Source: Burkholderiales bacterium (GTDB lineage Bacteria; Pseudomonadota; Gammaproteobacteria; Burkholderiales; Burkholderiaceae_C). Taken from it: a stretch of 57,956 nt of DNA. The stretch spans positions 1-57,956 of the forward strand of contig JANXYH010000105.1 of NCBI GenBank assembly GCA_025350145.1, given 5' to 3'. The notes under the pieces are model-generated. The model did not search any database. It was not told the origin of the DNA and saw nothing but the letters and a program-made list of their open reading frames with translations. Positions 6,616 through 35,962 of the stretch are shown one piece after another. Position numbers and translations under genes: made by a program. Numbering within the stretch: position 1 is the first letter of the stretch; every line of letters begins with the position of its first letter.

Positions 6616-6735
6616 GGGGTGCGTCCGATGCTGGGTGTTGGGGAAGGGTCAATCTGCCGGATCAGGATAGCAAGACTTGCCGCCCCGGCCCAGTCGGGAA
6701 AGGCCTGCCCTGGGTGCCGACCGGCGGGCCGCCGC

Positions 6736-6750
6736 TAGGATAGTGCGATG
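6736..6750 (+). promoter_or_regulatory. Candidate -10 element for add, with leaderless start
   Basis: TAGGAT at 6736-6741 is followed by only six bases before the ATG at 6748. That places a transcription start on or next to the start codon. No purine-rich ribosome binding site lies upstream. A convincing -35 was not found. The signal is suggestive only. Confidence 0.35.
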
Positions 6751-7812: not shown

Positions 7813-8503
7813 AGGCCTGGGCCGGCAGCCGCGCCAGATTGGGCACCCGGGCGTCGGCGGCGGGATAGCCCACCGGCATCAGCAGCACCGCCCTTTCGTT
7901 GCTGCCCCGGCCCAGCAGGTCGCGCAGGAAGGCCATCGGGTTGGGCGTGTGGGTCAGCGTCACCAGGCCCATCGTCTGGATCGCGGCGATGAACAGGCCG
8001 GCGGCGATGTTGACGCTCTCGTCGACGTAGTAGTTCTTGCGCTGCGAGCCGTCGGCGTTGAGGCCGTACTTCTCGGCGAACAGCACCACCACCCAGGGCG
8101 CATCGGTCATGTGCGCCTTGACATGGTCGGTGCCCAGCGGGTGCAGCGCGGCGCGCCATTCCTCGGGCATGCGGCCGCTGTAGGTCTTCTGCTCCTCGGC
8201 TTCGGCGGCGGCCCGCAACTGGGCCTTCAGGCCGGCGTCGTCGATGGCGACAAAGCGCCAGGGCTGGCGGTGTGCGCCCGACGGCGCGGTGCCGGCGGTG
8301 AGCATGGCCAACTCGATCAGCCGCCGCGCCACCGGCTGGCGCGAGAAGTGCCGGGTGCTGCGGCGCCGGTTCATCTCGGCGTAGAAGGCTTCGGCCCGGG
8401 CCAGCATCTCGGGCTCGCTGTGGCGTTGGTAGCCGGGCAGCGGCACGAACACCGGCTCGGGCAGATGGGCGGTGAGTTGCTTGTAGTCGATCGGGGCCGT
8501 CAT
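7781..8503 (-). CDS. Nitroreductase-family flavoprotein, iodotyrosine deiodinase-like
   Basis: A 240-residue FMN-dependent oxidoreductase of the nitroreductase fold. NRRRSTRHFS near residue 45 and GTAPSGAHRQPWRFV near residue 75 are the usual phosphate- and flavin-binding segments. The latter, together with the long insert after KYGLNADGS, resembles the iodotyrosine deiodinase-like branch. The ATG at 8503 is preferred over an upstream in-frame start at 8629 because the family alignment begins near there and the extra 42 residues look non-coding. The substrate is unknown. It converges on add with a 32 bp overlap. Confidence 0.85.
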   Translation of the reverse strand: MTAPIDYKQLTAHLPEPVFVPLPGYQRHSEPEMLARAEAFYAEMNRRRSTRHFSRQPVARRLIELAMLTAGTAPSGAHRQPWRFVAIDDAGLKAQLRAAAEAEEQKTYSGRMPEEWRAALHPLGTDHVKAHMTDAPWVVVLFAEKYGLNADGSQRKNYYVDESVNIAAGLFIAAIQTMGLVTLTHTPNPMAFLRDLLGRGSNERAVLLMPVGYPAADARVPNLARLPAQAFIQWNAPARP

Positions 8504-8664: not shown

Positions 8665-9429
8665 ATGGCCAAGTTGTTCGATCTCACCGGGCGCACGGCC
8701 CTGGTCACGGGCTCCTCGCGTGGCCTGGGCCGGGCGATGGCCGAGGGCCTGGCCCAGGCCGGGGCCCGGGTCCTGATCAACGGCCTCGACGCGGCCCGTG
8801 CCGAGGCCACCGCGCTGGCCCTGCGTCAGGCCGGCCACCAGGCCGATGTCGCCGCCTTCGACGTGACCGACGAGGCCCAGATCGTCGCTACCTTCAACCG
8901 CCTGGACGCGCAGGGCACGGCGGTCGACATCCTGGTCAACAACGCCGGCATCCAGTTGCGCAAGCCGATGGTCGAACTGAGCACCGCCGAATGGCAGCGC
9001 GTGATCGACACCAACCTGACCAGCGCCTTCGTCATCGGCCGCGAGGCGGCCCGGCGGATGCTGCCGCGCGGCCACGGCAAGATCATCAACATCGGCTCGC
9101 TGATGAGCAGCCTGGGCCGCGCCACGGTCGCGCCCTACACCGCCGCCAAGGGCGGCATCAAGCTGCTGACGCAGGCGATGGCGGCGGAATGGGCGGCCAG
9201 CGGCATCCAGGCCAACGCCATCGGCCCGGGCTACATGCTGACCGAGATGAACCAGGCCCTGATCGACAACCCGAGCTTCAACGCCTGGGTGGTCGGGCGC
9301 ACGCCGTCGCGGCGCTGGGGCCGACCCGACGAACTGGTCGGCACCGCCGTCTACCTGGCCAGCGCCGCATCCGACTATGTCAACGGCCAGATCGTCTATG
9401 TCGATGGCGGCATGACGGCCATTCTCTGA
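8665..9429 (+). CDS. SDR-family oxidoreductase, gluconate 5-dehydrogenase-like
   Basis: This 254-residue classical short-chain dehydrogenase has the cofactor motif TGSSRGLG (15-22), NNAG (92-95) and the catalytic triad Ser145, Tyr158, Lys162. LTGRTALVTGSSRGLG and the ending DGGMTAIL resemble gluconate 5-dehydrogenases, which reduce 5-keto-gluconate to gluconate. The gene 15 bp downstream is a zinc dehydrogenase that resembles L-idonate 5-dehydrogenase, so the pair could interconvert L-idonate, 5-ketogluconate and D-gluconate. No kinase or permease of an idonate pathway is adjacent, so the exact sugar acid is uncertain. Confidence 0.88.
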   Translation: MAKLFDLTGRTALVTGSSRGLGRAMAEGLAQAGARVLINGLDAARAEATALALRQAGHQADVAAFDVTDEAQIVATFNRLDAQGTAVDILVNNAGIQLRKPMVELSTAEWQRVIDTNLTSAFVIGREAARRMLPRGHGKIINIGSLMSSLGRATVAPYTAAKGGIKLLTQAMAAEWAASGIQANAIGPGYMLTEMNQALIDNPSFNAWVVGRTPSRRWGRPDELVGTAVYLASAASDYVNGQIVYVDGGMTAIL

Positions 9430-9444
9430 ACCCGGGAGCCGACG

Positions 9445-10497
9445 ATGCGACTGCGCTGCATGTGTCTGAAGATCCACGCCCCCACCGACCTGCGGCTGGA
9501 GGAGATGGAGGTCGCCGAGCCCGGCCCGGGCGAGGTGCTGGTCAAGGTGGCGATGGGCGGCATCTGCGGCTCGGATCTGCACTACTACCGCCACGGCGGC
9601 TTCGGCACGATCCGCATCCAGGAGCCGATGGTGCTGGGCCACGAAGTCGCCGGCAGCGTCAGCGCGGTCGGCCCCGAGGTGACCCGGGTGCAGGTCGGCG
9701 ACCGCGTCGCGGTGACGCCCAGCCGGCCCTGCTCGGCCTGCCGCTATTGCCTCGAAGGCCTGCCCAACCAGTGCCTGGACATGCGCTACTACGGCAGCGC
9801 GATGCGCATGCCGCATGTCCAGGGCGCGTTCCGCGACACCCTGCTGTGCAACGCGGTGCAGTGCTTCAAGGTGGCCGAGGGCGTGCCAATCACGCTGGCC
9901 GCGCTGGCCGAGCCGTTTGCGGTCTGTCTGCACGCCGTCTCGCGCGCCGGGCCATTGATCGGCAAGCGGGTGCTGGTCTCGGGCTGCGGGCCAATTGGCG
10001 TGCTCTCGGTCGCCGCCGCGCGCATCCACGGCGCGGCCGAGATTGTTGCCACCGATGTGCTTGACGAACCGCTGCGCGTGGCCAAGGCGATGGGCGCGAC
10101 CCGCACGATCAACGCCGCCACCGACTCGGACTGGGTGCGCGCCGGCTCGGCCGACAAGGGCAGCTTTGACGTGATGCTCGAATGCTCGGGCAACCAGCGC
10201 GCCCTGCGCGACGGCCTGGAGGTGATGCGCCCGCGCGGCGTGGTGGTGCAGCTCGGCCTGGGTGGCGATGTCAGCGTGCCGCAGAACCTGATCGTGGCCA
10301 AGGAGTTGAGCATCTGCGGCTCGTTCCGCTTCCATGCCGAATTTGCCCTGGCGGTGCAGCTCATCAACGAGGCGCGGCTGGATTTCAGCCCGGTCGTCAG
10401 CCACACCTTCGGCCTGCGCCAGGCCACCGAGGCTTTCGAGCTGGCCAGTGATCGGCAGAAGTCGATGAAGGTGCTGCTGGACTTTGCGCAGGCCTGA
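9445..10497 (+). CDS. Zinc-dependent alcohol dehydrogenase, L-idonate 5-dehydrogenase-like
   Basis: A 350-residue medium-chain dehydrogenase. The catalytic zinc ligands are in GGICGSD (Cys41) and GHE (His66-Glu67). The four structural zinc cysteines are at 96, 99, 102 and 110 within PCSACRYCLEGLPNQC. SGCGPIGVLS in the second half is the nucleotide-binding glycine motif. The closest recognisable type is L-idonate 5-dehydrogenase. It probably forms an operon with the SDR gene 15 bp upstream. Sorbitol or another polyol dehydrogenase is possible. Confidence 0.88.
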   Translation: MRLRCMCLKIHAPTDLRLEEMEVAEPGPGEVLVKVAMGGICGSDLHYYRHGGFGTIRIQEPMVLGHEVAGSVSAVGPEVTRVQVGDRVAVTPSRPCSACRYCLEGLPNQCLDMRYYGSAMRMPHVQGAFRDTLLCNAVQCFKVAEGVPITLAALAEPFAVCLHAVSRAGPLIGKRVLVSGCGPIGVLSVAAARIHGAAEIVATDVLDEPLRVAKAMGATRTINAATDSDWVRAGSADKGSFDVMLECSGNQRALRDGLEVMRPRGVVVQLGLGGDVSVPQNLIVAKELSICGSFRFHAEFALAVQLINEARLDFSPVVSHTFGLRQATEAFELASDRQKSMKVLLDFAQA

Positions 10498-10579
10498 TGG
10501 CGCTTCGGCGGTGGTTTGAACGACCCAGGGAGGGATCTGCATGGCGGGCCAGATTCAGGCGCATGCCGGCCTGACCATA

Positions 10580-10608
10580 TACGAACTATTTGCCACTCTT
10601 TGTTCGTA
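10580..10608. promoter_or_regulatory. Inverted repeat operator candidate for the Xre/RES module
   Basis: A perfect 7-bp inverted repeat, TACGAAC (10580-10586) and GTTCGTA (10602-10608), has half-site centres 22 bp apart, i.e. two helical turns. A promoter-like TTGCCA (10590-10595) and CACAAT (10613-10618), 17 bp apart, overlap it. The first codon of the antitoxin is 41 bp downstream. Autorepression by the encoded helix-turn-helix antitoxin is the obvious reading. Confidence 0.65.
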
Positions 10609-10648
10609 AGCGCACAATCGCGTCGCCTTCTACTCTGGAGCCACCGCC

Positions 10649-11065
10649 ATGGGTGCAATGCTGGAAATCCCGCTTGCCGTCGCGCCACCGGACCTGAAAT
10701 CCGAGGCCGCCGCCGCGGCCGCCCTGCGCACCTTTTGGCGGTTGGCCGAGGCCTGGCAACTCAGCGCCGCCGAGCAACTCAACCTGCTCGGGGTCGGCAA
10801 GACCACCTTCTACCAATGGAAGCAGGGCAAGGTCACGGCACTGGACCGGCATGTGCTGGAGCGCCTGTCCTACCTCTTCGGCATCTACGCCGCGCTGCAA
10901 ATCCTCTTGCCCGTGGCCGAACGCGCCAACGCCTGGATCCGCAAACCCAACCAGGCGCCATTCCTGGGCGGCCAATCCGCACTGGCACGGATGCTCGGCG
11001 GCCAGGTGGCGGACTTGTTCGTCGTGCGCCAATACCTGGACGCGCAACGCGGCGGCAAGGCGTGA
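10649..11065 (+). CDS. Xre/MbcA/ParS-type antitoxin
   Basis: The 138-residue protein has an Xre-like helix-turn-helix (around LSAAEQLNLLGVGKTTFYQW, residues 39-58) followed by the C-terminal toxin-binding segment of the MbcA/ParS/Xre antitoxin family. That segment includes a PNQAPFLGGQSALARML stretch, matching the family pattern in which a product-like loop is followed by GxSAL. It should neutralise the RES protein encoded next and repress its own promoter. Its stop codon overlaps the GTG start of the toxin (GTGA), as expected for a coupled type II pair. An alternative ATG lies at 10658. Confidence 0.9.
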   Translation: MGAMLEIPLAVAPPDLKSEAAAAAALRTFWRLAEAWQLSAAEQLNLLGVGKTTFYQWKQGKVTALDRHVLERLSYLFGIYAALQILLPVAERANAWIRKPNQAPFLGGQSALARMLGGQVADLFVVRQYLDAQRGGKA

Positions 11066-11793
11066 GCCCGAACGACATCCCCCGCGTCGCGCTCGACTGG
11101 CGCCCCTGCCACCGCCTGGTCGCCAGCCGATTCCCGACCATCGGCCTGTACGACGACATCACCGCCGCGCAAGACCTGGAAGTGGTCTTCGCCATCGAGG
11201 CGCTGACCAACCCGCGCATCCGCCAGGAACTGGGCGCCTTGTCGCTGGTGGCACCCAATGATCGCCTCAGCGGCCCTGGCGCGACCCTGGTGATGGCCGC
11301 CTTCACCCACCTCAACCCCGAGGGCTCGCGCTTCTGCGACGGCAGCTACGGCGTCTACTACGCCGCGCTGGCGCTGGAGACGGCGGTGGCCGAGGTCAGC
11401 CACCACCGTGCGGTCTTTCTGGCGCGCACTGGCGAGCCCGAGATCGCCTTCGACCTGCGCCGCATCCAGGCCGAACTGGCCGCCGACGCCGCCCACGACA
11501 TCCGCGCTGGCGCCGTCGACCCGGCAGCCCTGGCCGAAATCTGCCATCCCAGTCGCTACGCCGCCGGCCAGGACCTGGGCCGCCGCCTGCGCCAGGCTGG
11601 CGCCCAGGCCATCGTCTACGACAGCGTCCGCCACCGCGGTGGCCAATGCGCCGCCGCGTTCTTGCCGCGGCTGCTGCGCAAACCGCGCATCGCCGGCCAT
11701 GTCGGCCTGCATTGGGACGGTAAGCGCATCAGCCACTGGTACCTCAAGGGCCAGCCCAGGCCGCTGCTGGCCGTCGCCTCCCACCCGATTTGA
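11062..11793 (+). CDS. RES-domain toxin (NAD+-degrading family)
   Basis: A 243-residue RES-domain protein. The three defining polar residues are placed as in the family: Arg in EGSRF (90), Glu in ETAVAEVSHH (111) with tyrosines at 99-100, and Ser in IVYDSVR (188). Known RES toxins deplete cellular NAD+; activity here is inferred. The frame is open far upstream, but the GTG at 11062 that overlaps the antitoxin stop is the natural start. It sits directly upstream of a dehydrogenase gene, 11 bp away. Confidence 0.9.
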   Translation: MSPNDIPRVALDWRPCHRLVASRFPTIGLYDDITAAQDLEVVFAIEALTNPRIRQELGALSLVAPNDRLSGPGATLVMAAFTHLNPEGSRFCDGSYGVYYAALALETAVAEVSHHRAVFLARTGEPEIAFDLRRIQAELAADAAHDIRAGAVDPAALAEICHPSRYAAGQDLGRRLRQAGAQAIVYDSVRHRGGQCAAAFLPRLLRKPRIAGHVGLHWDGKRISHWYLKGQPRPLLAVASHPI

Positions 11794-11804
11794 AGCCCCA
11801 AACC

Positions 11805-12887
11805 ATGACCATCGCCAACCACCTGATACCCGTCGCCCGGCTGCACACCGCGATCCGCCTGCTGGTGCGCGGCTTTGGCAGCGCTCCGGCCGAAGTTGAG
11901 GCCGTCGCCAACAACCTGATCGAGGCCAACCTGCGCGGCCACGACTCGCATGGCATCGGCATGTTGCCGCGCTACGCCGACGCCTACCTCGAGGGCGGGC
12001 TCAAGCCCAACGCCCATGTCAAGACCTTGCTCGACGGCGGGGCGATGCTGCGCCTGGACGGCGACACCGGTTTCGGCCAGGTCATCGGCCAGGAAGCCAT
12101 GGCCCTGGGCATAGCCCGCGCCCGCCAGCACGGCAGTTGCATCGTCGCGCTGGGCAATGCCCACCACCTCGGGCGGATCGGTGCCTGGGCCGAGCAGGCG
12201 GCAGAGGCCGGCCTGGTGTCCATGCACTTCGTCAACGTCATCAGCCGCGCCATCGTCGCCCCCTATGGCGGCGCCGATGCCCGCTTCGGCACCAACCCGT
12301 TCTGTGCCGGCGTGCCGTTCGCCAACCGCCCGCCGGTGATCCTCGACCTGGCCACCAGCGTCATCGCCCAGGGCAAGACCCGGGTCGCCCACAACAAGGG
12401 CGAGCCGGTCGCGCCGGACTGTTTGATCGACGACCAGGGCCGCGCCACCACCGACCCGCGCTACACCGTGATCCCGCCGTTCGGCGCCCTGCTCACCTTT
12501 GGTGGCCACAAGGGCTACGGCCTGGCCCTGATGTGCGAACTGCTGGGCGGCGCGTTGGCCGCAGGTGCCACCCAGCGCAGCGACGAGACCGGCAAGAAAC
12601 GGGTCCACAACGGCATGCTCAGCGTGCTGCTCGATCCGGCCATGCTCAGCGACCGTGCCGCCTTTGAGGCCGAGGCCCTGGCCTTTCTGGACTGGGTCCA
12701 GGCCAGCCCGCCACGCCAGGGTTTTGAGGCGGTGCAGGCGGCCGGCGACCCGGAGCGCGCCTACCGGGCCAGCCGGTTGGCCGATGGCGTGCCGGTAGAC
12801 GGCACGACTTGGGGCGAAATCCTTGCGGCAGCGGAAAAGCTGGGGGTCTCAGCGGCGGCGATTCAGGCTGCGGCGGGGCTGGTCTGA
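11805..12887 (+). CDS. Malate/L-lactate dehydrogenase family (Ldh_2) oxidoreductase
   Basis: A 360-residue NAD(P)-dependent oxidoreductase of the Ldh_2 family, which acts on 2-hydroxy acids or their keto forms. Family features include NLRGHDSHGIGMLPRY early in the protein, GNAHHLGRIG near residue 115, and YGGADARFGTNP followed by a conserved lysine region (FGGHKGYGLAL). The ATG at 11805 has family-typical spacing; a TTG at 11790 overlapping the toxin stop is less likely. The position directly behind the toxin gene may be accidental, or the gene may share the toxin promoter. Members include hydroxycarboxylate dehydrogenase B and ureidoglycolate dehydrogenase; the substrate is not resolvable here. 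Confidence 0.88.
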   Translation: MTIANHLIPVARLHTAIRLLVRGFGSAPAEVEAVANNLIEANLRGHDSHGIGMLPRYADAYLEGGLKPNAHVKTLLDGGAMLRLDGDTGFGQVIGQEAMALGIARARQHGSCIVALGNAHHLGRIGAWAEQAAEAGLVSMHFVNVISRAIVAPYGGADARFGTNPFCAGVPFANRPPVILDLATSVIAQGKTRVAHNKGEPVAPDCLIDDQGRATTDPRYTVIPPFGALLTFGGHKGYGLALMCELLGGALAAGATQRSDETGKKRVHNGMLSVLLDPAMLSDRAAFEAEALAFLDWVQASPPRQGFEAVQAAGDPERAYRASRLADGVPVDGTTWGEILAAAEKLGVSAAAIQAAAGLV

Positions 12888-25676: not shown

Positions 25677-26510
25677 TCAGGGTCTGGCCGACGGGAAAAA
25701 CACCTGCTGGCCGTTGATTTGGTAGGCGGCAATGCGGGCCTGGCCGGCGGGCGCGACCAGCCAATCGGCAAACTGCTGGGCCAGCGCCGCCTTGACCTGC
25801 GGGTGCCTGGCCGGGTTGACGACCAGCACGCCGTAGGGGTTGCGCAGGGCCCGGTCGCCCTCGACCAGCAGGGCCAGGTCGGCGCGGTTCTTGAACGCCA
25901 GCCAGGTGCTGCGGTCGGCCAGCAGGTACTGGCCGGTCGAGGCGGCGATGTTCAGCGCCTGGCCCATGCCGCAGCCGCAGGCCTGGTAGCCGGCGAATTT
26001 CTGGCCGCGGATGTCGATCCCGGCCTGCTGCCACAGCCGCAACTCGGCGGCGTGGGTGCCGCTGTTGTCGCCGCGCGAGACAAAGCCGCTGCCAGCCCGG
26101 CCGTGGAGCTTCTTGAACGCGCCGACGATGTCGCTGCCGCGCAGCCCGGCCGGGTCGGACGCCGGGCCGAGCAGCACGAAATCGTTGTACATCAGCTCGC
26201 GGCGCTGGGTTGCGAAGCCCTCGGCGACGAAGCGCTCCTCGGCCACGCGGTCATGCACCAGCAGGGCGTCGGCGTCGCCGCGGCGGGCGGTGTCCAGCGC
26301 CTGACCGGTGCCCAGCGCCAGCACCCGCACCGTGATGCCGCTGGCGGCGGTGAACGCCGGCAGCAGGTGGGCGAACAAGCCGGACTGCTCGGTCGAGGTG
26401 GTCGAGGCCAGCACGATGTAGCGTTGGCCGGGCGGCGATTGGGCAGCCGCCGCGCCGACCCACAGCCCGGCCCAGCCCAGCAGCAACAGACGCCAACGAA
26501 TCAGTCCCAC
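25677..26510 (-). CDS. tupA: Tungstate ABC transporter substrate-binding protein
   Basis: A 277-residue periplasmic protein. A signal peptide (RWRLLLLGWAGLWVGAAAAQ) precedes the TupA-type core: VLASTTSTEQSGL (oxyanion contact), LALGTGQALDTARRGDADALL, LMYNDFVLLGP, and SRGDNSGTHAAELRLW. TupA binds tungstate, sometimes molybdate. There is no in-frame ATG before the signal peptide; GTG at 26510, which overlaps the end of tupC by 10 nt, is the start. Order tupB-tupC-tupA with overlaps indicates one operon. Molybdate-binding ModA is less likely given the TTST motif. Confidence 0.9.
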   Translation of the reverse strand: MGLIRWRLLLLGWAGLWVGAAAAQSPPGQRYIVLASTTSTEQSGLFAHLLPAFTAASGITVRVLALGTGQALDTARRGDADALLVHDRVAEERFVAEGFATQRRELMYNDFVLLGPASDPAGLRGSDIVGAFKKLHGRAGSGFVSRGDNSGTHAAELRLWQQAGIDIRGQKFAGYQACGCGMGQALNIAASTGQYLLADRSTWLAFKNRADLALLVEGDRALRNPYGVLVVNPARHPQVKAALAQQFADWLVAPAGQARIAAYQINGQQVFFPSARP

Positions 26511-27244
26511 GGCAACTCGCCTTTGAGAAACGCCGCCGCCGCATGGCTGGCGGTCGGGGCAAAGAAGCCTGGGGTCGGCAGGTCGACCAGCGCCCGGCCG
26601 GCCTCCAGGTAGAGCACCCGCTGGCACAGCCGCTTGGCCTGGCCGAGGTTGTGGGTGCTCAACACCAGGACCACGCCGTCGCGGCCGAAGTCGTCGATCA
26701 GTCCCTCGACCTCGCGCTTGGCCGACGGATCGAGGCTGGCGGTGGGTTCGTCCAGACAAAGGATATCGGGCGCCAGCGCCCAGGCCCGGGCCAAGGCCAG
26801 GCGCTGCTGCTGGCCGCCCGAGAGGGTGCGTGCCGGGCGCTGCGCCTGCGCATGCAAACCGACCCGGCGCAGCGCCTCGTCACAGCGGGCGCGGCGCTGC
26901 GCCGCCGGCACGCCACGCAGCCACAGCCCCAGGGCGACATTGCGCCTGGCCGACAGGTGGAGCAGGAACGGGCGCTGGAACAGCAGGGTCGAGACCGGCA
27001 TGCGGCCAGGGTCGCCGGTTGCGGCGGCAGGCCCTGCCATGGCGTGGGCGATGCGCTGACCACTGCTGGCCGGCAGCACCCCGTCGAGCAGGCGCAGCAG
27101 GGTGGTCTTGCCCGAGCCGTTGGCGCCGACCAGCGCCAGGCGCTCGCCCCGGTGCAATTGCAGGTCCAGCGGCTGCAGCGCCGTGACCGCGCCGAAGCGC
27201 ACGCTGGCGGCTCTCAGGCTCAGCAGCAGTTGGCCCGAGTTCAT
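26501..27244 (-). CDS. tupC: Tungstate ABC transporter ATP-binding protein
   Basis: A 247-residue ABC ATPase with Walker A GANGSGKTT (39-47), signature LSGGQQQRLALAR, Walker B ILCLDEPTASLD and the switch histidine in LVLSTHNLGQA. The start overlaps the tupB stop by 4 nt (ATGA). It powers the TupB permease. The Q-loop segment LLFQRPFLLHLSARRN is normal. Its role is assigned from tupA and tupB next to it. Confidence 0.92.
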   Translation of the reverse strand: MNSGQLLLSLRAASVRFGAVTALQPLDLQLHRGERLALVGANGSGKTTLLRLLDGVLPASSGQRIAHAMAGPAAATGDPGRMPVSTLLFQRPFLLHLSARRNVALGLWLRGVPAAQRRARCDEALRRVGLHAQAQRPARTLSGGQQQRLALARAWALAPDILCLDEPTASLDPSAKREVEGLIDDFGRDGVVLVLSTHNLGQAKRLCQRVLYLEAGRALVDLPTPGFFAPTASHAAAAFLKGELPWD

Positions 27245-27960
27245 TGGCCGCGGCCGCCCTGCCAGGCGTCAACTGGCTGCGGCGCCAGCGCCAACAGCAG
27301 GTTGACCAAGGCCACCACCCCCAGCAGCACCAGCCCCAGGCCCAGCGCCAGGGGCAGATCGCCCTTGCTGGTCTCGAGCGCGATCGCGGTGGTCATGACC
27401 CGGGTCACGCCGTCGATGTTGCCGCCCACCACCATCACCGCGCCGACCTCGGCGACGGCCCGGCCGAACGCCGTCAGCAGCACCGTCAGCACCGCCCTGC
27501 GCTCGTGCAGCAGCAGCAGCAGCGCGGTCATGGCGCGGCCGGCGCCCAGCGCCTGCAACTGGTCGCCGCCGTCGCGCAGCGCGTCGTCCACCACCTGCCG
27601 CGCCAGTGCCGCGATCAGTGGCAGCACCAGCAGGGTCTGGGCGATGACCATCGCCGCGGGCGTGAACAAAATCCCCCACGACCCGAGTGGCCCGGCGCGC
27701 GACAGCAGCAGGTAGACGACCAGCCCAACCACCACCGAGGGCAGCGCCAGCAAGGTATTGAGCGCGCCCACCGCCAGGCCATGGCCGGGAAAGCGCGCCA
27801 CCGCCAGCCAGGCGCCGGCCAACAGGCCCAGCGCCGCGCCGAACAGGCAGGCCAGCGCGCTGACCCGCAGCGACAGCGCCACGATCGCCAGCAGCGCGGC
27901 ATCGGCATGCAGCACCAGGCCCAAGGCGGTGCTCAGGCTTTGGGCGAAGGGGTTGGCCAT
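27241..27960 (-). CDS. tupB: Tungstate ABC transporter permease
   Basis: A 239-residue membrane protein with about five or six hydrophobic segments and the EAA-type cytoplasmic loop for ATPase contact (ALGAGRAMTALLLLLHERR). AFGRAVAEVGAVMVVGGNI is the distinctive TupB/ModB-like stretch. It is the first gene of the tungstate operon. The 85 bp between it and the convergent-side HAF protein gene show no obvious promoter; transcription most likely starts there. Confidence 0.92.
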   Translation of the reverse strand: MANPFAQSLSTALGLVLHADAALLAIVALSLRVSALACLFGAALGLLAGAWLAVARFPGHGLAVGALNTLLALPSVVVGLVVYLLLSRAGPLGSWGILFTPAAMVIAQTLLVLPLIAALARQVVDDALRDGGDQLQALGAGRAMTALLLLLHERRAVLTVLLTAFGRAVAEVGAVMVVGGNIDGVTRVMTTAIALETSKGDLPLALGLGLVLLGVVALVNLLLALAPQPVDAWQGGRGQ

Positions 27961-28045: not shown

Positions 28046-29485
28046 TCACTGCTCGGCCGAATCCGGCGTCAGCAGCCAGGGCGAGGCATAGAACCAACCC
28101 GGCCGGTCGTTGGGCTCGAACTGCTGCACGCTCAGCGCCACCCCCTGGCAGGACTGCGACGGCGGCAGCAGCCGCGCCAGCGGGTGCAGCAGCAGGCGCT
28201 GGCCGCGTTCGGTCTGGCCGACATCGCTGGCGCGCAGCTCCAGCGTCCGCGCCTGGCCGGGCCGCAGCAGCACGATCTGCGAGGGCCCGACCGGGCGCGC
28301 ATCGGCATCGCTGAAGGCCAGCGCCACCCGGCAGGTCGGGATCGCGTCGGATTGCACCGCCGGCACCAGCGAGACCGCACGCACCATCAGCCGCAGCGAC
28401 TGCTCCGGCCCGAGGCTGACCACACCCAGCCGCGCCGGCGGGTCGGGCTGCGGGTTGAAGGCCAGCACCGGGCCGGCGCCAGCCAGCGCGGCGGCGGCGG
28501 CCAGGCAGGCCAGCGCGCTCGGCCGGCGCCGCCGCGACCGCGCCCATGCCAGCAAGGCCAGGCCGGCCACCAGCGACCAGCCCAGCGCCGGTTCGGCCAC
28601 CGGTGTGGCGATGAAACCATGGACCAGGCCGCGCGCATCGCCCCATTCGCCGACGATCACCCCCAGGTCGTTGATGGCGTTGGCGATGGTGTATTCGGCG
28701 CCGGGCAGGTTGAACGAACGGGCAACGCCGCCATGCTCGACGAAGGCGCTGCCGTTGCTGCTGGCGTCCTGCCACCAGCCGACCACATCGCCGAGGTCGT
28801 TGGTGCCATGGGCAAAGGTGAAGCCCAGGCTGGGCACATCGATCTGCCGCAGCGTTGCGCCCAGCATTTCGAAGCCGTGCCAAATCCCAGCGTCGACAAA
28901 GCTGCCGACCACGCGCCCGCTGGCATCGATGCCGCGCACTGCGGTATAGCCGTCGCTGCCCAGGTCCAACGTGGCATAGGCGCTGCCGCTTTTGATGAAG
29001 CCACGCGTGGTCAGGCCGAAATCCAGCGAATAACTGCCCACCACCTGGCCGCTGTCGTTCAGACCCCAGGCAAAGATGTCGTTGGGTGCGCCCGGGTCGA
29101 TCTGGGTCACGACCGCGCCGGAGCGGGTGTAGCCCCAGAGCTTGGCGCCGTCGTAGTACGAACCAGAGATCTGGCCGAGTTGGTTGATGCCGTAGACCTC
29201 GGAGATGTTGACCGAGCCCGGCACCACCACCGTCTGCACGCTGCCGCTGGCGGCGCGGACGAAGCCGATGCCGCAGCAAGCGCCGTCGTCGGTCCAGCCG
29301 ACGATGGTGCCGGCGTTGTTGATGCCGGTGAGCTTGGTGTCGACCGCGCCGGGCATGTCGATGGTGGTGAAGCTGTAGGGTGCGGCGCTGGCCGGCAGCA
29401 CCATCCCGGCGCCCAACCAGGGCAAGGCGGCGGCCAGCCAGGCGAGCAGAGTTGCCAGGGCACGGGCAAGGTGGCGAGGGGTCAT
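28046..29485 (-). CDS. Secreted HAF-repeat protein with internal anchor and second secretion-like module
   Basis: A 479-residue protein. Residues 1-34 are a signal peptide ending PASAAP. Residues 35-290 carry about six HAF-type repeats (GINNAGTIVGW, GINQLGQISGSY, GLNDSGQVVGSY, GIDASGRVVGSF, GTNDLGDVVGWW, AINDLGVIVGE), expected to form a beta-propeller. Then VAEPALGWSL (296-305), a hydrophobic span and RSRRRRPS (316-323) look like a PEP-CTERM-type sorting tail. The chain does not stop there: a second hydrophobic segment (324-342, ending VLAF) is followed by NPQPDPP (344-350) and a 130-residue domain. It looks like two secreted proteins fused. It lies 121 bp downstream of the kinase gene on the same strand. 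Confidence 0.75.
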   Translation of the reverse strand: MTPRHLARALATLLAWLAAALPWLGAGMVLPASAAPYSFTTIDMPGAVDTKLTGINNAGTIVGWTDDGACCGIGFVRAASGSVQTVVVPGSVNISEVYGINQLGQISGSYYDGAKLWGYTRSGAVVTQIDPGAPNDIFAWGLNDSGQVVGSYSLDFGLTTRGFIKSGSAYATLDLGSDGYTAVRGIDASGRVVGSFVDAGIWHGFEMLGATLRQIDVPSLGFTFAHGTNDLGDVVGWWQDASSNGSAFVEHGGVARSFNLPGAEYTIANAINDLGVIVGEWGDARGLVHGFIATPVAEPALGWSLVAGLALLAWARSRRRRPSALACLAAAAALAGAGPVLAFNPQPDPPARLGVVSLGPEQSLRLMVRAVSLVPAVQSDAIPTCRVALAFSDADARPVGPSQIVLLRPGQARTLELRASDVGQTERGQRLLLHPLARLLPPSQSCQGVALSVQQFEPNDRPGWFYASPWLLTPDSAEQ

Positions 29486-29584
29486 GAGAAAGCTCCGGAA
29501 AGGACGCTGCTGACAATCCCGGCGTGGATCGATTGCGCCGGGTCCTGGAGAAGATTCGGCAAGCGCCGCCCGACCGGACATCGC

Positions 29585-29606
29585 CCCCCCTCGATTCAGG
29601 GGGTGG
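29585..29606. terminator. Stem-loop after the kinase gene
   Basis: CCCCC (29586-29590) and GGGGG (29599-29603) flank an 8-base loop directly after the kinase stop codon. There is no T-run on the transcribed side, so it may slow transcription or stabilise the 3' end instead of terminating. Confidence 0.35.
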
Positions 29607-32522
29607 TCAAAAGACCAGCCACAGGCGCAGCGGCAGCTCGATCTGGTGCTGCGCCAGCAATCCGGCCCGGGCGCTGCGGGCCAGCGCGGCGGCGGCAGCG
29701 TCTTGGCCGGCAGCGCGCAGCAGCTCGGCGCGCACCGCCTGGGCCGTCAGCCACAGCGGGTGCCCGGCCTGGCCGTCGCCAAGCGTGGCCTGAAGCCCGG
29801 CCAGGGCCTTGTCCCAGGCCTGCTGGGCCGGGCCGTGCTGGCCCAGATCGGCCAGCGCCATGGCCTGGTTCAGCCCGGCCTTGGCGGCCAGCAGCCGCGC
29901 CTGGAAGATGCTTGAGCTGCTGGCCAAGGCCTGCGCCTCCTCGGCCACCGCCGCCGCCTGCCCAGGCTGGCCCAGGGCGCGCAGGGCGCCGGCCAGGTAA
30001 CTGCGGGTGAAGGCGCGGCGCCAGGCAGCGGTCTTGGCCGCCAGTTCGCGCGCCGACACCTCCTCGAGCAGGGCGCGGGCCTGGGTGGCGTCACCGCTCA
30101 GCAGCAGGGCCAGGGCCGATTGGCGCTGCATGCCGCGCTGCTCGGGTGCGCGGGCAGCGTCGCTCGCGCCATCGGCGGGCAGCCGGGCGTTGAACTCGTC
30201 GAGGCTGCGCCGGGCCAGCGCCTGGGCCGGTTGCGCCCGCCCCAGCAGCAGCAGCGGCAGGACGCTGGCCTGCTCGGCGATGGCGGTCTTGAGGTCGGCC
30301 GGGCCGTAGAGCGCGCGGCTGCGCTGGGCATGTTCAGCCATCGCCAGCAGGGCCGCGGCCGGGTCGCCGGCGTCGGTCAAGGCCAGGCCCAGGTCGCGCC
30401 GCAGGGCCGTGCCGGTGGGGTTGGGGTCGCCGGTCAGGCGGTCGTATTCGGCGATCGATTGGCGCAGCGCCTGCACCGCCGGCACCAAGGCCCCGGCGCG
30501 CCACAGCACCTGGCCGGCCTCGCCGCGCAATGAGGCACCCTCGATCGCCTGGGCCGGTGGCAGCAGCCGCAGGCGCGGCTCGACCTCGACCAGGATCGCC
30601 AGCGCGCGCGGCAGTTGCCCGGCGCGTGCCAGGTTGAAGGCCATCCGGCTGCGCGCCTGCAGGGTGTCCAAATTGTCCGGCCCTTTGAGCGCGGTCAGGC
30701 GCGGGACCAGGTCCTGGAGCACGCGCAGCGCCTCGTCGCCGCGCTGCAGCATGCCCAGGCTGGTGGCCTCGGCCATTGCCAGGTCCAGCACCAGGGCCTC
30801 GTCTGGCTCGGACCGCGACCAGGGCAGGGGCGAGCGGTCGTCGCGCAGCGCCTGCTGGGCTTGGCCCACCAGTGCCAGCGACGCCTCGTAGTGCAACAGG
30901 CCCTCCTCGACCGTGGCCAGGGCCAGCACGGCCTGGGCATAGGCCGGCCCGCGCCCGCCGGTCTGGGCCTGCAGGCTGTCGCGGCGGGCCTGGGCCAGCG
31001 GCCGGGCGTGGGCAAAGTCGGACAGCCGCAGCTCGATCCGCAACAAGGCCTCCAGGACCGCGTCGCGCAACTCGGGCTGGTCGGCCAGTCGGGTGTGGAC
31101 ATCCTTGGTGCCACGCGCCAGCAGTTCACGCGCGGTCGGGTCCTTGCCCTGGCTGCGGGCCGGGTCGGCGGCATCGAAGACGCCGACCAGAAAATCTTGC
31201 ACCGCCCGCGCCCTGGCCGCCTGCCGGGTTGCCAGTTGCGCCTGCCACAGCGCCAGACCGGTGCCTGCGACCAGGGCCAGCGCCACCGCTGCGGCGGCAG
31301 CCACGGCAATGCGGTTGCGGCGCAGGAACTTGGCGGCGCGGTAGCCCAGGCTGGCGGGATGGGCCAGCACCGCCACGCCGTCGAGCTGGCGTTGCAGGTC
31401 GGCGGCAAAAGCCTCGGCGCTGGCATAGCGCAGTGCCGGCTCGCGCTGCAGCGCCTTGGCCAGGATGTTGTCCAGATCGCCGCGCAACTGCCGGGCCAGG
31501 GTCTCGGGCCGGCCACTGCGGCGGGCGGCCACTTGTTGCACATCGGACTGCTCCTGCAGCGCCCGGCTGGCGCGTGCCGGGTCGGTGGCGAGCACGGCCT
31601 GTTCGAGCGCCGCCCGACCCGCCTGCGCGGGCACGAACGGGCGCCGGCCGCAGAGCAGTTCGAACAGCACCACAGCCAGCGAATAGACGTCGGCGGTGGT
31701 GCTGGCCGGGGCGCGCAGGAGTTGCTCGGGCGCGGCGTAGTCGGGCGTCAGCAGCGCCTGCCCGACTTCGGTCAGCGGCCCACCCGAGCCGGCCACATCG
31801 TCCAGCGGCAGGGCGATGCCGAAGTCGAGCAACTGCACCTGGCCGGCCGCGTCGACAAAGATGTTCGAGGGCTTCAAGTCGCGGTGCACCACCAACTGGG
31901 CATGGGCGTACTGCACCGCCGACAGCACCTGCATGAACAGCAGGATGCGTGCACGCAGATCCAGCCGGCGGGCGTCGGCATGGGCGGTGATGGTCTGGCC
32001 ATCGACCAAGGCCATCGCCAGCCAGGGCTGGCCGGCATCGGTCAGGCCGGCGTCGTAGAGCCGGGCGATGTGCGGATGTTCCAGCCGCGCCAGGAGGTCG
32101 CGCTCGCGGGCAAAGCGCTGCGCCCAGCGGCGCTGGCCGGGGTGGGCGAACGGCAGCTTCAGCGCGACCTGGCGCTGAACCTTGCCATCCGCCGGATCGG
32201 CGCGCTCGGCCCGCCAGACCACGCCCATGCCGCCTTCGCCCAGGAGTTGCAACAGCCGGTAGGGGCCGACCAGGTCATTGGCGGCGGCGGTCTGGCTGGC
32301 CTCAAGGCTGTCGGCGACCAGCCGGCGCAGCGCCGTCGGCGTGATCGTGCTGGCCTGCTCCTGGGCAGTGCTGTGGTCGAGCAGGCGCTGCAGGTGCGGC
32401 AGCAGATCGGCGTCGGCGTCGGCTTGAGCCGCCAGCCAGGCCGGGCGCTGCTCGGCCGGCAAGGCCAGCAGGGCGTCGGCGGATTGCGCCAGCCTGGCCA
32501 GTCGGTCGGCGCCCAGGGCCAT
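29607..32522 (-). CDS. Transmembrane Ser/Thr protein kinase with TPR-like extracytoplasmic region
   Basis: A 971-residue protein. Residues 1-80 are a helical leader; the kinase domain spans about 88-375 with GEGGMG (95-100), the ATP-anchoring Lys122, HRDLKPSN (213-220, catalytic Asp215), DFG (233-235) and APEQ after it. A single transmembrane helix is at about 404-425. The remaining 540 residues are Ala/Leu-rich helical repeats of TPR character, with spacing such as ALAIL and YEASLALVGQA. It starts 13 nt after an ECF sigma gene, so the two are an operon. The known pairing of such sigma factors with kinases suggests the sigma factor is the substrate. Confidence 0.9.
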   Translation of the reverse strand: MALGADRLARLAQSADALLALPAEQRPAWLAAQADADADLLPHLQRLLDHSTAQEQASTITPTALRRLVADSLEASQTAAANDLVGPYRLLQLLGEGGMGVVWRAERADPADGKVQRQVALKLPFAHPGQRRWAQRFARERDLLARLEHPHIARLYDAGLTDAGQPWLAMALVDGQTITAHADARRLDLRARILLFMQVLSAVQYAHAQLVVHRDLKPSNIFVDAAGQVQLLDFGIALPLDDVAGSGGPLTEVGQALLTPDYAAPEQLLRAPASTTADVYSLAVVLFELLCGRRPFVPAQAGRAALEQAVLATDPARASRALQEQSDVQQVAARRSGRPETLARQLRGDLDNILAKALQREPALRYASAEAFAADLQRQLDGVAVLAHPASLGYRAAKFLRRNRIAVAAAAAVALALVAGTGLALWQAQLATRQAARARAVQDFLVGVFDAADPARSQGKDPTARELLARGTKDVHTRLADQPELRDAVLEALLRIELRLSDFAHARPLAQARRDSLQAQTGGRGPAYAQAVLALATVEEGLLHYEASLALVGQAQQALRDDRSPLPWSRSEPDEALVLDLAMAEATSLGMLQRGDEALRVLQDLVPRLTALKGPDNLDTLQARSRMAFNLARAGQLPRALAILVEVEPRLRLLPPAQAIEGASLRGEAGQVLWRAGALVPAVQALRQSIAEYDRLTGDPNPTGTALRRDLGLALTDAGDPAAALLAMAEHAQRSRALYGPADLKTAIAEQASVLPLLLLGRAQPAQALARRSLDEFNARLPADGASDAARAPEQRGMQRQSALALLLSGDATQARALLEEVSARELAAKTAAWRRAFTRSYLAGALRALGQPGQAAAVAEEAQALASSSSIFQARLLAAKAGLNQAMALADLGQHGPAQQAWDKALAGLQATLGDGQAGHPLWLTAQAVRAELLRAAGQDAAAAALARSARAGLLAQHQIELPLRLWLVF

Positions 32523-32535
32523 CGCCGTGCCAGGT

Positions 32536-33102
32536 TCAGGCGGCTTCGGTCGCCGCCTGCAGCAGCACCTTGGCCTTGGCCCATTGGCGGCGCACGGTGC
32601 GGTCGGTCAGGCCCAGCGCCTGCGCGACCTGCAATTCGCCCAGTCCGCCGAAGCAGCGCATCTCGATGATCTGCACCAGGCGCTCGTCGACCTGGCTGAG
32701 CTGGGCCATCGCCTCGTGCATGCGCAGCAATTGCTCGTCGCCGAGGTTGGCGGCCGCAGCAGCGCCGTCGCCGGTGTCGAGCGTCACCTGCTGCAGGCCG
32801 CCACCGCGACGCAGGGCGTGGCGGCGGCGAACGAAGTCGACCACCACGAAGCGCATCACCCGGCAGGCGTAGCCGAGGAATTGGCCGGGGTCGGTGATGG
32901 CGCTCCGGGCGTCGCCGGCCATGCGCAGGTAGGTCTCGTGCACCAGGCCCTGGGTGTCCAGCAGCGTGATCGCCTCGTTGCGGCGCAATTGGGCATGGGC
33001 CAGGCGCTTCAGGCGCGGGTAGAGCTGGGCAAAGAGTTGGCCGAGTTCGGGCCTGGGGTCGAGATCGGCAGCGGCCAGTGCGGGATCGGCGGTGTCGGGC
33101 AT
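32536..33102 (-). CDS. ECF sigma factor (TIGR02999-like), kinase-associated
   Basis: A 188-residue sigma-70 family protein. Region 2 runs from about 20 to 95, with VHETYLRM at 54-61; region 4 from about 130 to 180, with LQVAQALGLTDRTVRRQWAKAK as helix-turn-helix. At the position where ECF factors usually have the acidic DAED motif, this one has DTQG (49-52), so negative charge is lacking and a threonine (Thr50) stands there. No anti-sigma gene is adjacent; a Ser/Thr kinase follows. The ATG at 33102 is preferred; an in-frame ATG at 33132 adds ten residues. Confidence 0.88.
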   Translation of the reverse strand: MPDTADPALAAADLDPRPELGQLFAQLYPRLKRLAHAQLRRNEAITLLDTQGLVHETYLRMAGDARSAITDPGQFLGYACRVMRFVVVDFVRRRHALRRGGGLQQVTLDTGDGAAAAANLGDEQLLRMHEAMAQLSQVDERLVQIIEMRCFGGLGELQVAQALGLTDRTVRRQWAKAKVLLQAATEAA

Positions 33103-33424
33103 GGGCGTCAGGTCAATGTGGCAGGCCCCCATGATCCGGGGCGTCGCCGCGCAGCACGGAAATCAGAGCGATGGCGGGCGCGGTGTCTTGCGGACCATGC
33201 TACGCCGGCCACGATCGTGAGCCGCTGCGCAGCATCGACCACGACTGTGTCCAGATGTGCGCTGAGCGGGCATGACCGAACGCCACCCTGACTGCGGCCG
33301 CAGCCTGGGCGCAGCGAAAAAGGGGACAAGTCAAACGCTGGCGGCTGCACGCTAAAGCTTGAGGCGAGCGCACCGATATGTTCCATGAGCGGCCCGCACC
33401 TCAGCGCGCGCCGGTCACCCCAAA
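33103..33424. other. 322-bp divergent intergenic region
   Basis: This lies between the divergent sigma/kinase operon and the CHASE-GGDEF gene. It must hold both promoters. It includes a locally less GC-rich patch near 33320-33365. I found no strong -35/-10 pair, RNA gene or open frame worth calling. Confidence 0.5.
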
Positions 33425-35962
33425 ATGACGTCTACCCAGACCCCGCCCGACTCGACCGATGCTGCGCAGCGCGCCAAGCTGCGCAGCCCTTGGCCGACCC
33501 TGTTGGCCAGCCTGTTGTTCTGCGCCGGGGCAGGCGCCAGCGTCTGGGCCTGGCTGTCCAGTGCGCAGTCCCAGGCCGATGTCGCCGACGCCGAGTTCGC
33601 GCGCTTCGCCAACCTGACGGTCAACAGCATCGACCAGCGTTTGCAGCGCCAGGTTGACCTGCTGGCCAGCTTCCAGGCGCTGTTCCGCGGCGGCGGCCAG
33701 GTCAGTCGGGTCGAGTTCCACCGCCTGTTCGAAGACCTGCGCGTCAGCAGCCGGTTCCCTGGGGTGCAGACCATTGCTTTCTCGCGCCAGGTCAGCGAGG
33801 GCCAGCGCCCAGCGCTGGAGGCCACGGTGCGCGCCGACCGCAGCCTGCACGCCGACGGCTACCGGCTGTTCGAGGTGCATCCGCGCGGCCCGCGCAGCGA
33901 CTACATCGTCGCCGTCTACGTCGAGCCCATGCACGGCAACGAGGCGGTGATGGGCTATGACGGCGCCGCCGAGCCGGTCCGCCGCGAGGTCGCCGACCGC
34001 GCCCGCGACAGCGGTCTGGCAGCGGCGACCGCGCCAATCAAGACCTTCAGTGGCCTGACCGGGCTGGCCATCCGCGCCCCGGTCTACCGTGCCGGCGCCG
34101 CCACCGACACGCTGGCGGCGCGCCGCGCCGCCTACCTCGGCCAGATCAGCAGCGTGGTCACGGGCCAGGCCCTGCTGCAACACGCCTTGCCGCAGCAGGC
34201 ATCGGGTCTGCCCTATCGGGTGCGGATCAGCGACATCGGTTACAGCGACGCGCCCCCAGGCTCTCAAGGAAACGAAGGGCCGCTCCCGAGTTTCCTTGAC
34301 CCCCTCGGGGGGCCTGACGCGAAGCGGCAGGTCTGGGGGCGCTCAGAGCAGGTCAAGCCGCAAGCCCTGGCCGAGCTTGGCGACCTCAGTGCGGCGGCGC
34401 CGGAGCGGGCCAGCGCCAGCGACTACCGGCGCCACACGCTGAACGCTGCCGGGCGACTCTGGCAGGTCGAGTTCAGCCGTCCGCCGATCCGCCACACGCT
34501 CGGTGTCAGCCCGCTGTTGGTGTTGATCGCCGGGCTGCTGGCGACCCTGGCGCTGTCAGGCTTCGTCGCCCGGATGACCTGGCTGAACCGCCTCGCCAGG
34601 GCGCAGGCCGAACGCAGCAGCGCCCAGGCCCGGGCCAACGCCGAACGGCTGGAGACGGTGTTCAACAGCACCGTCGACGGCATCATCACGCTCGACGCGC
34701 AGGGTTACATGCTCAGCGTCAACCGGGCCGCGCAGCACTGCTTTGGCTACCGCGAGGCCGAGATGCTGGGCCGGCGTCTGAACCTGCTGCTGCCGGACGG
34801 GCTGCCCGGTGGCTACGGCGCAGAGGGTCTGAGCGCGCTGGTCAAGGGCGGCGCCGACCCGGCCTGCGGCCACAACCGCAGCCTGCCCGGCCAGCGTGCC
34901 GACACCAGCCGGCTGCCGATCGAGTTGGGCGTCAGTGAAATGGAGGTCGATGGCCAACGCCAGTTCGTCTGCCTGGTGCGCGACCTGAGCGACCTGCACG
35001 CCGCCGAGCAGCGCCTGGCACAGTCGGCGCAGGACTTGCAAGCAGCCAACGCCTTGCGCGAGGCGGTTTTCCGCCATGCTGCCTTCGCCTTGATCGTCAC
35101 CGACCGCAACGCCATGGTGCGCGCCGTCAATCCTGCTGCCGAACGGCTGCTGGGCTACAGCGCCGAGCAGATGGTGGGCAAGATGCCGGCCTCGGCGATC
35201 CATGACCCGATCGAGTTCGCCGACCTGGACGGCGCCGTGGTCGAGCACCTGCACCCCGCGCCGGACGCCCACGACAGCGGACGCAGTTTGAGCCTGGAGC
35301 GGCAGGTGCGCTACATCCGCCAGGACGGGCACGCCGTGCCGGTGTCGCTGACCCTGTCTGCGTTGCGCGACGCGCAAGGCCAATTTGACGGCCTGGTCGG
35401 CATCTCGTATGACGTCACCGAGCGCCAACGCATGGCCGAGCACCTGCTCCACATGGCCTACCACGACGGCCTGACCGGCCTGGCCAACCGGGTGCTGCTC
35501 GAGGACCGGCTGGGCCAGGCGATCAGCCAGGCCAGCCGCGATGGTCAGGCGCTGGCGCTGCTGTTCATTGACCTGGACCGCTTCAAACCGATCAACGACA
35601 CCTACGGCCATGCCGTAGGCGACCAGGTGCTGTGCGAGGTGGCGCGGCGGCTGCTGGCCAGCCTGCGCACCATGGACACGGTGGCGCGGGTCGGCGGCGA
35701 CGAGTTCGTGGTGCTGCTGACCGCCATCAGCCAGGCCAGCGACTGCCTCCTGGTGGCCGACAAACTCGTGACCAGCATCAGCGAGCCGATCGCCATCGGC
35801 GAGCGTTGGCTTGAGGTCGGCGCCAGTGTCGGCGTGGCCCATTGGCCAGACGCCGGGGTCGACGCCGGGGCGATGCTGCGCAGTGCCGACGCCGCCATGT
35901 ACCGGGCAAAGCAGGCCAGGCGCCAGGCGCTGGGCGCGATGTCGGACATGGTCGTGCCTTGA
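33425..35962 (+). CDS. Membrane diguanylate cyclase with CHASE, two PAS and GGDEF domains
   Basis: An 845-residue protein. Transmembrane segments at about 25-45 and 360-380 enclose a periplasmic CHASE domain (FPGVQTIAFSRQV, then YIVAVYVEPM). Two PAS domains follow (about 415-520 and 545-665). The GGDEF domain has the active-site motif GGDEF at 757-761, after the metal-binding FIDLDRFKPIND, so it should make cyclic di-GMP. No EAL domain. Residues 276-306 (APPGSQGNEG...) match a 93-bp palindromic repeat inserted in frame, in the late part of the CHASE region. The product may sense an unknown periplasmic ligand. Confidence 0.9.
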   Translation: MTSTQTPPDSTDAAQRAKLRSPWPTLLASLLFCAGAGASVWAWLSSAQSQADVADAEFARFANLTVNSIDQRLQRQVDLLASFQALFRGGGQVSRVEFHRLFEDLRVSSRFPGVQTIAFSRQVSEGQRPALEATVRADRSLHADGYRLFEVHPRGPRSDYIVAVYVEPMHGNEAVMGYDGAAEPVRREVADRARDSGLAAATAPIKTFSGLTGLAIRAPVYRAGAATDTLAARRAAYLGQISSVVTGQALLQHALPQQASGLPYRVRISDIGYSDAPPGSQGNEGPLPSFLDPLGGPDAKRQVWGRSEQVKPQALAELGDLSAAAPERASASDYRRHTLNAAGRLWQVEFSRPPIRHTLGVSPLLVLIAGLLATLALSGFVARMTWLNRLARAQAERSSAQARANAERLETVFNSTVDGIITLDAQGYMLSVNRAAQHCFGYREAEMLGRRLNLLLPDGLPGGYGAEGLSALVKGGADPACGHNRSLPGQRADTSRLPIELGVSEMEVDGQRQFVCLVRDLSDLHAAEQRLAQSAQDLQAANALREAVFRHAAFALIVTDRNAMVRAVNPAAERLLGYSAEQMVGKMPASAIHDPIEFADLDGAVVEHLHPAPDAHDSGRSLSLERQVRYIRQDGHAVPVSLTLSALRDAQGQFDGLVGISYDVTERQRMAEHLLHMAYHDGLTGLANRVLLEDRLGQAISQASRDGQALALLFIDLDRFKPINDTYGHAVGDQVLCEVARRLLASLRTMDTVARVGGDEFVVLLTAISQASDCLLVADKLVTSISEPIAIGERWLEVGASVGVAHWPDAGVDAGAMLRSADAAMYRAKQARRQALGAMSDMVVP
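34250..34342. repeat. 93-bp palindromic repeat element inside a coding region
   Basis: Ends are perfect 10-bp inverted repeats, GCGCCCCCAG (34250-34259) and CTGGGGGCGC (34333-34342). Inside are another 10-bp inverted repeat, TCAAGGAAAC (34264-34273) and GTTTCCTTGA (34290-34299), and a CCCCC-TC-GGGGG hairpin (34300-34311). The length is exactly 31 codons and the frame is open. It has the look of the small palindromic intergenic repeats common in Burkholderiales genomes. Confidence 0.8.

Follow-up and report, generated by a model that had tools for sequence, protein, structure and literature searches.

A candidate three-gene signalling unit of an ECF43-like sigma factor without the canonical phosphosite threonine, a membrane kinase and a secreted HAF-repeat fusion protein

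Three adjacent genes in the window, the whole 57,956-nucleotide stretch of Burkholderiales DNA that was analysed, encode an ECF43-like sigma factor, a transmembrane Ser/Thr kinase and a HAF-repeat protein whose reading frame runs on into a second secreted domain. We propose, with a probability of roughly 0.55, that these genes form a signalling unit in which the kinase switches the sigma factor through a relocated phosphosite and to which the secreted HAF fusion protein belongs. In the ECF43 model, as given in the consulted parts of two reports, one phosphorylated threonine of region 2.2 replaces the missing acidic residues, and the work on EcfK adds a site in the linker (PMC8999054, PMC13147305). 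Judged by its aligned sequence, the window sigma factor is missing this canonical phosphoacceptor; the unit is, on the same grounds, ECF43-like but lacks one defining feature, the phosphothreonine at the third motif place, and is thus a variant. The features discussed below are as follows.

33102..32536, minus strand: sigma factor gene, ECF43-like; 188 aa from the ATG at 33102; PF07638 and TIGR02999
32947..32958, minus strand: region 2.2 motif D49-T50-Q51-G52, placed by sequence, published motif positions and alignments
32950-32952, minus strand: Gln51 codon, standing at the known phosphothreonine place
32773..32784, minus strand: linker T107-L-D-T110; Thr107 is the proposed counterpart of EcfK Thr106, from column statistics and spacing
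29607..32522, minus strand: Ser/Thr kinase gene; 971 aa, transmembrane, Hanks-type, with a C-terminal TPR-like region; PF00069 and TPR_12
29485..28046, minus strand: HAF-repeat ORF; 479 aa; TIGR02913
28523..29485, minus strand: HAF-repeat part of that ORF, with a signal peptide and a degenerate PEP-CTERM-like tail (VAEP...RRRR); TIGR02913
28049..28519, minus strand: second secreted domain of the same ORF; signal-peptide-like stretch, FNPQPDPP, about 130 residues

Layout of the locus and the sigma factor/kinase pair

The three genes are real and lie in the order given by the first-pass annotation, the sigma gene being followed after 13 nt by the kinase gene and this after 121 nt by the HAF-repeat ORF. 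All three frames are open, and an in-frame ATG at 33132 is a possible alternative start for the sigma factor. Nothing lies between the sigma and kinase genes and the other neighbour of the sigma gene is a divergent CHASE-PAS-GGDEF gene, so that no anti-sigma gene is adjacent, as had been claimed. The divergent gene (33425-35962, plus strand; CHASE-PAS-PAS-GGDEF) encodes a probable diguanylate cyclase and has its upstream region in common with the sigma gene. Behind the HAF gene, at 25677-27960 on the minus strand, lie ABC transporter genes, comprising an ATPase and a solute-binding protein by Pfam and a probable permease without a Pfam match; by resemblance, we take these to serve perhaps tungstate or molybdate uptake.

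The sigma factor matches PF07638 at 108.5 bits (cut-off 21.1) and TIGR02999 at 132.3 bits (cut-off 126.15), and no relative was found in the PDB at E 0.01. It is the only strong PF07638 match in the window genome, where two further matches of 23.7 and 23.5 bits, in frames of more than 600 aa, are barely above the 21.1-bit cut-off. The kinase matches Pkinase (PF00069) at 128.1 bits and TPR_12 at 30.5 bits (cut-off 30.1), carries one strong hydrophobic segment around residues 403-428, and has intact GEGGMG, VALK, HRDLKPSN, DFG and APE motifs. Its best PDB match, 9EED (E 7.3e-43, residues 4-381), includes the part N-terminal to the kinase domain and is reported to be PknS of Xanthomonas citri (PMC13147305). 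For the sigma factor and the kinase, the proposed pairing of the EcfP/PknT and EcfK/PknS kind is borne out as ECF43-like.

The region 2.2 phosphosite and the linker

The motif is STTA in EcfP, with the second threonine phosphorylated (PMC8999054), and QATE in EcfK, with Thr51 phosphorylated (PMC13147305), which makes the phosphothreonine the third motif letter in both. When anchored by DxxDxxQE, the window sigma factor reads D49-T50-Q51-G52-L-V-H55-E56, and the phosphothreonine place therefore falls on Gln51. Thr50 is the second letter and aligns with the first threonine of the DTTA common among homologues. The first-pass annotation had read DTQG correctly (residues 49-52) but had placed Thr50 at the published EcfP/EcfK phosphosite, which is off by one residue; Thr50 as the EcfP/EcfK acceptor is ruled out by the motif alignment. 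Its description of the acidic motif as lacking applies to the second D, replaced by Gly52, but not to Asp49, the first D of DxxD, which is kept as in 100 of the 124 distinct homologues sampled.

The reported ECF43 consensus is QTTA, with threonine at the phosphosite in 88% of members and hence absent from 12% (PMC13147305). To place the window sigma factor among its relatives, 127 stretches including the window were searched; a sigma factor was present in 126 of them, with 129 occurrences in total. These stretches came from overlapping searches of 150, 399, 21 and 399 genomes (family, order, genus) and from named records, and they represent good matches to the window sigma factor, not a random sample of ECF43. 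Counting occurrences with the same motif and linker once left 124 of the 129, with Thr in 98, Gln in 8, Ser in 6, Gly in 6, Ala in 2, Glu in 2, Asn in 1 and Pro in 1 at the third place, where one Glu (L222) and the Pro (L204) come from doubtful alignments. Serine at this place could still be phosphorylated. A starred clade of nine sigma factors (L116-L121, L152, L198 and L232, not L122 on) has Ser or Ala there and never Thr. The sigma factor of L207 (genome G735) has DTES, a natural phosphomimic with Glu at the phosphothreonine place, and the adjacent kinase keeps its catalytic loop and DFG.

When 84,980 species genomes were scanned for exact matches to the DTQ[G/A] sigma motif, seven stretches were returned. 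Six hold such a sigma factor and one (L082) does not; the six include near-copies, their titles name Burkholderiales in five cases and a beta proteobacterium in one, and a kinase lies downstream in all five that have room for one. In a tree of 128 homologue rows built without the motif columns, the change between Thr and not-Thr occurred at least 12 times, and starred branches require six of these changes; on 125 rows the minimum is 10. Glutamine at the third place arose at least three times on the 128-row tree, and a single origin of the Gln variant was rejected (p-AU 0.0013). The sister of the window sigma factor is that of L114, which has the motif DTTS (57% identity; SH-aLRT 92, branch not starred). 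At 9126-12001, L114 holds two sigma/kinase pairs back to back in opposite directions, and the first pair is the nearest relative of that in the window.

Kinases persist beside the sigma factors that have no threonine at the phosphosite. Where 1.5 kb or more of downstream sequence was available, a kinase followed the sigma gene at 24 of 25 loci without the threonine and at 83 of 95 loci with it. The catalytic loop and DFG were matched in all 28 non-Thr rows with a kinase, and simple patterns missed the ATP-binding lysine in 4 of the 28 and the P-loop in 16.

We next consider where the switch may have gone. EcfK with T51A is reported to be functional and EcfK with T51A/T106A is not, T106 being located in the sigma2-sigma4 linker (PMC13147305). 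The linker of the window sigma factor has threonine at 107 and 110, and Thr107 was matched to EcfK Thr106 by spacing (55 vs 56 residues) and column make-up, not by a direct alignment with EcfK. Ser, Thr, Asp or Glu occupies T106 in 76.9% and S108 in 63.3% of the published set (PMC13147305), and position 107 in 99 and position 109 in 83 of the 124 window homologues. Three of the 128 tree rows were dropped before paired and Fisher counts: L222 (misaligned), L204 and the second, distant sigma factor of L114. In raw Fisher counts, Thr or Ser stands at 107 in 24 of 27 non-Thr sigma factors compared with 69 of 98 others (p 0.08, not significant) and at 110 in 26 of 27 compared with 90 of 98 (p 0.68). 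Once relatedness is allowed for, the six independent pairs on the tree give no power for retention at 107, at 110 or at the first or second motif place. Since EcfK tolerates T51A unless T106 is also lost, linker Thr107, perhaps together with Thr50, may carry the switch in the window sigma factor. By this comparison, the switch has probably moved and works like that of EcfK/PknS, with the linker as the most likely new site.

The same counts bear on two competing accounts. The kinase could instead phosphorylate Thr50, one residue before the old site, so that phosphorylated Thr50 does the work of phosphorylated Thr51, which would make it the residue named at first pass but for another reason; threonine occupies the second motif place in 27 of 27 non-Thr sigma factors and 82 of 98 others (raw Fisher p 0.02), and none of the 125 rows is without threonine at both places. 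However, the dropped row L204 (DPPA as aligned, doubtful) has no threonine at either place, the six independent pairs provide no test of dependence, and the site reported for EcfP and EcfK is the third place and not the second (PMC8999054, PMC13147305), all of which leads us to regard a shift to Thr50 as unlikely. A partly constitutive sigma factor, able to bind core with Asp49 and Gln51 alone while the kinase no longer controls it or acts elsewhere, would fit the finding that all 27 non-Thr sigma factors begin the motif with Asp, compared with 76 of 98 others (raw Fisher p 0.004), as well as the phosphomimic of L207, but it sits poorly with kinases that remain adjacent with their catalytic loop and DFG intact, and we consider it quite unlikely. 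A switch relocated to the linker is the reading retained below.

The HAF fusion protein and its linkage to sigma/kinase loci

The HAF ORF matches TIGR02913 at 29.5 bits (cut-off 22.65), although the same repeat reached only 16 bits in a six-frame genome search, and a PDB search at E 0.1 gave one weak match (E 0.041). Its description as a HAF-repeat protein thus stands but is incomplete, as the ORF also encodes a PEP-CTERM-like tail, which is degenerate, and a further secreted domain. The PEP-CTERM signal PF07589 gave no match in the window ORF at E up to 1; the VAEP of the tail aligns with the VPEP/MPEP of genus-mates. Past this tail, the frame continues through a signal-peptide-like stretch into the FNPQPDPP domain, which matched no Pfam or NCBIfam family.

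Besides the window, a search of 299 genomes of the family matched the FNPQPDPP domain three times, in two genomes that both belong to one other genus. All three lie beside ECF43-like kinases: L285 follows a kinase fragment located at the end of a contig, L286 follows a sigma-kinase pair, and L284 lies between the sigma factor and the kinase. These relatives are stand-alone proteins that look secreted by eye and are 46, 38 and 34% identical to the window domain (L285, L286 and L284, respectively), and the domains of the window and L285 have a C-terminal DSAE in common. No plasmid copies of the domain were found. The presence of HAF and FNPQPDPP in one ORF, each found beside ECF43-like kinases elsewhere, argues that both belong to the module.

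By a crude repeat rule, 5 of the 129 sigma occurrences have a HAF ORF downstream in the same orientation (the window, L078, L193, L208 and L212). In the genus-mates L208 and L212, whose sigma motif is NTTA, a HAF protein directly behind the kinase ends in PEP-CTERM and is 39% and 36% identical, respectively, to the HAF part in the window; that of L208 exceeds the PF07589 cut-off. In the named MAG L078, which has a DTQA sigma factor, the HAF protein starts 175 nt past the kinase stop and matches TIGR02913 at 112.8 bits. At 6021-8000 (plus strand) of L078, the HAF repeats are followed by a long stretch resembling autotransporter-type repeats that runs off the end.

The background was estimated by a HAF profile search of 80 genomes, of which 78 had supplied a sigma locus and two were further genus-mates. 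This gave 75 matches in 24 genomes, reduced to 51 genes by merging matches on the same contig and strand within 1.2 kb. Relative to the 83 PF07638 matches at E 1e-10 in those 24 genomes, 11 of the 51 HAF genes have a sigma gene of this kind no more than 10 kb away, compared with 0.73 expected, and chance linkage was rejected. Without the three genomes that were the source of the profile, 8 of 48 genes remain near a sigma gene; they occupy 7 loci spread over 5 genomes, and the Poisson p is about 1e-6 when every gene is treated as independent, though two share one locus. A kinase is present at all seven further HAF-sigma loci in varying arrangements, with the HAF gene of L274 located between sigma and kinase. 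The linkage recurs in several genera, and the refuting condition named in the first-pass annotation, a HAF gene without such linkage elsewhere, did not refute its proposal. The other 40 of the 51 HAF genes are not near a sigma gene. No HAF gene was found in 12-13.5 kb beside the nearest orthologous pairs (L114 and L128), both of which have the phosphosite threonine, and none of the HAF genes in nine other order-level genomes had a sigma or kinase gene within 1.5 kb flanks.

The linked HAF proteins mostly end in PEP-CTERM-like tails by eye, and the window genome has two exosortases (PF09721, 235.3 and 222.6 bits) and 19 PEP-CTERM matches. PEP-CTERM genes are not enriched near the sigma genes, with 1 among the best 150 matches listed compared with 1.95 expected, and a merely general density of PEP-CTERM genes was rejected as an explanation of the linkage. 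Secreted proteins in general show no excess behind such kinases (12 of 52, compared with 157 of the 728 remaining ORFs; the rule used to call signal peptides was crude and also missed the window HAF gene), and the broader proposal that such kinases are generally followed by a secreted protein was not supported. A search for bipartite promoter words common to the sigma and HAF upstream regions found 0, compared with 1.49 in shuffles. Decay of the unit, in which this lineage would be losing the sigma site, the PEP-CTERM tail and the gene boundary and the linkage with HAF would be a remnant, is improbable: the degenerate tail and the pairs of L114 and L128 without HAF would agree with it, but the open frames, the intact kinase motifs, the HAF linkage across genera and the in-frame second domain with its similarity to L285 down to DSAE all oppose it.

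Proposed mechanism and comparison with known systems

In the proposed mechanism, the membrane kinase would use its outer TPR-like region to sense a cue in the envelope or outside the cell, and would phosphorylate the adjacent ECF43-like sigma factor, which would engage RNA polymerase poorly until it gains negative charge. Asp49 may give part of the region 2.2 charge. Because the usual region 2.2 acceptor is Gln51 here, we infer that the remaining charge would be supplied elsewhere, most likely at linker Thr107 and possibly with Thr50 or Thr110. The third gene would contribute the secreted HAF-repeat protein with its second secreted domain, either as a surface product turned on by the sigma factor or as an accessory contacted by the outer domain of the kinase. 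This third component, placed in the unit by linkage, is probably the more novel part. A bolder version, in which an ECF43-type kinase has the secreted HAF/FNPQPDPP protein as its dedicated partner outside the cytoplasm, in a three-component transmembrane system, and activation through the linker without a region 2.2 phosphothreonine evolved several times, is possible but doubtful.

Whether phosphorylation of the linker is enough by itself to switch a sigma factor can be asked directly of the natural sigma factors that have repeatedly lost the region 2.2 threonine and kept their kinases. The HAF and FNPQPDPP proteins found beside such receptor kinases are specific candidates for the stimulus or the output of these kinases, and the link gives HAF repeats a first functional lead. 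By titles and abstracts, we found in the open-licence literature neither HAF proteins joined with ECF43 systems nor a treatment of Gln at the ECF43 phosphosite. Of the unit put forward at first pass as a candidate for an undescribed system, the sigma/kinase pair is already in print (PMC8999054, PMC13147305); what is new relative to the consulted parts of these reports is the absence of the phosphosite and the third component.

The HAF part matches the HAF-repeat family (TIGR02913), but its frame continues into a second secreted domain that belongs to no known family. The PEP-CTERM/exosortase system is similar in the mostly PEP-CTERM-like tails of the linked HAF proteins and the exosortases of the window genome, but the window HAF tail differs from its substrates in having no Pfam PEP-CTERM match, and regulation there is described as sigma-54 with a histidine kinase, PrsK/PrsR, unlike in the window (PMC1569441, PMC9850573). 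EcfP/PknT of Vibrio parahaemolyticus (ECF43) likewise has a kinase-activated sigma factor with no full DAED and no anti-sigma factor, but EcfP is phosphorylated on the second threonine of STTA, which the window sigma factor does not have (PMC8999054), and its motif contains no acid, whereas the window keeps Asp49 (PMC13147305). EcfK/PknS of Xanthomonas citri (ECF43) has type VI secretion as its output, and the part of the report consulted does not mention a HAF neighbour (PMC13147305). EcfK also differs in having Thr51 in place of the Gln51 of the window and in carrying Glu as the fourth motif letter. The two systems are alike in pairing a sigma factor with an adjacent transmembrane Hanks kinase, in the N-terminal extension and C-terminal TPR region of PknS and the window kinase, and in the linker threonine kept by both EcfK and the window sigma factor (PMC13147305).
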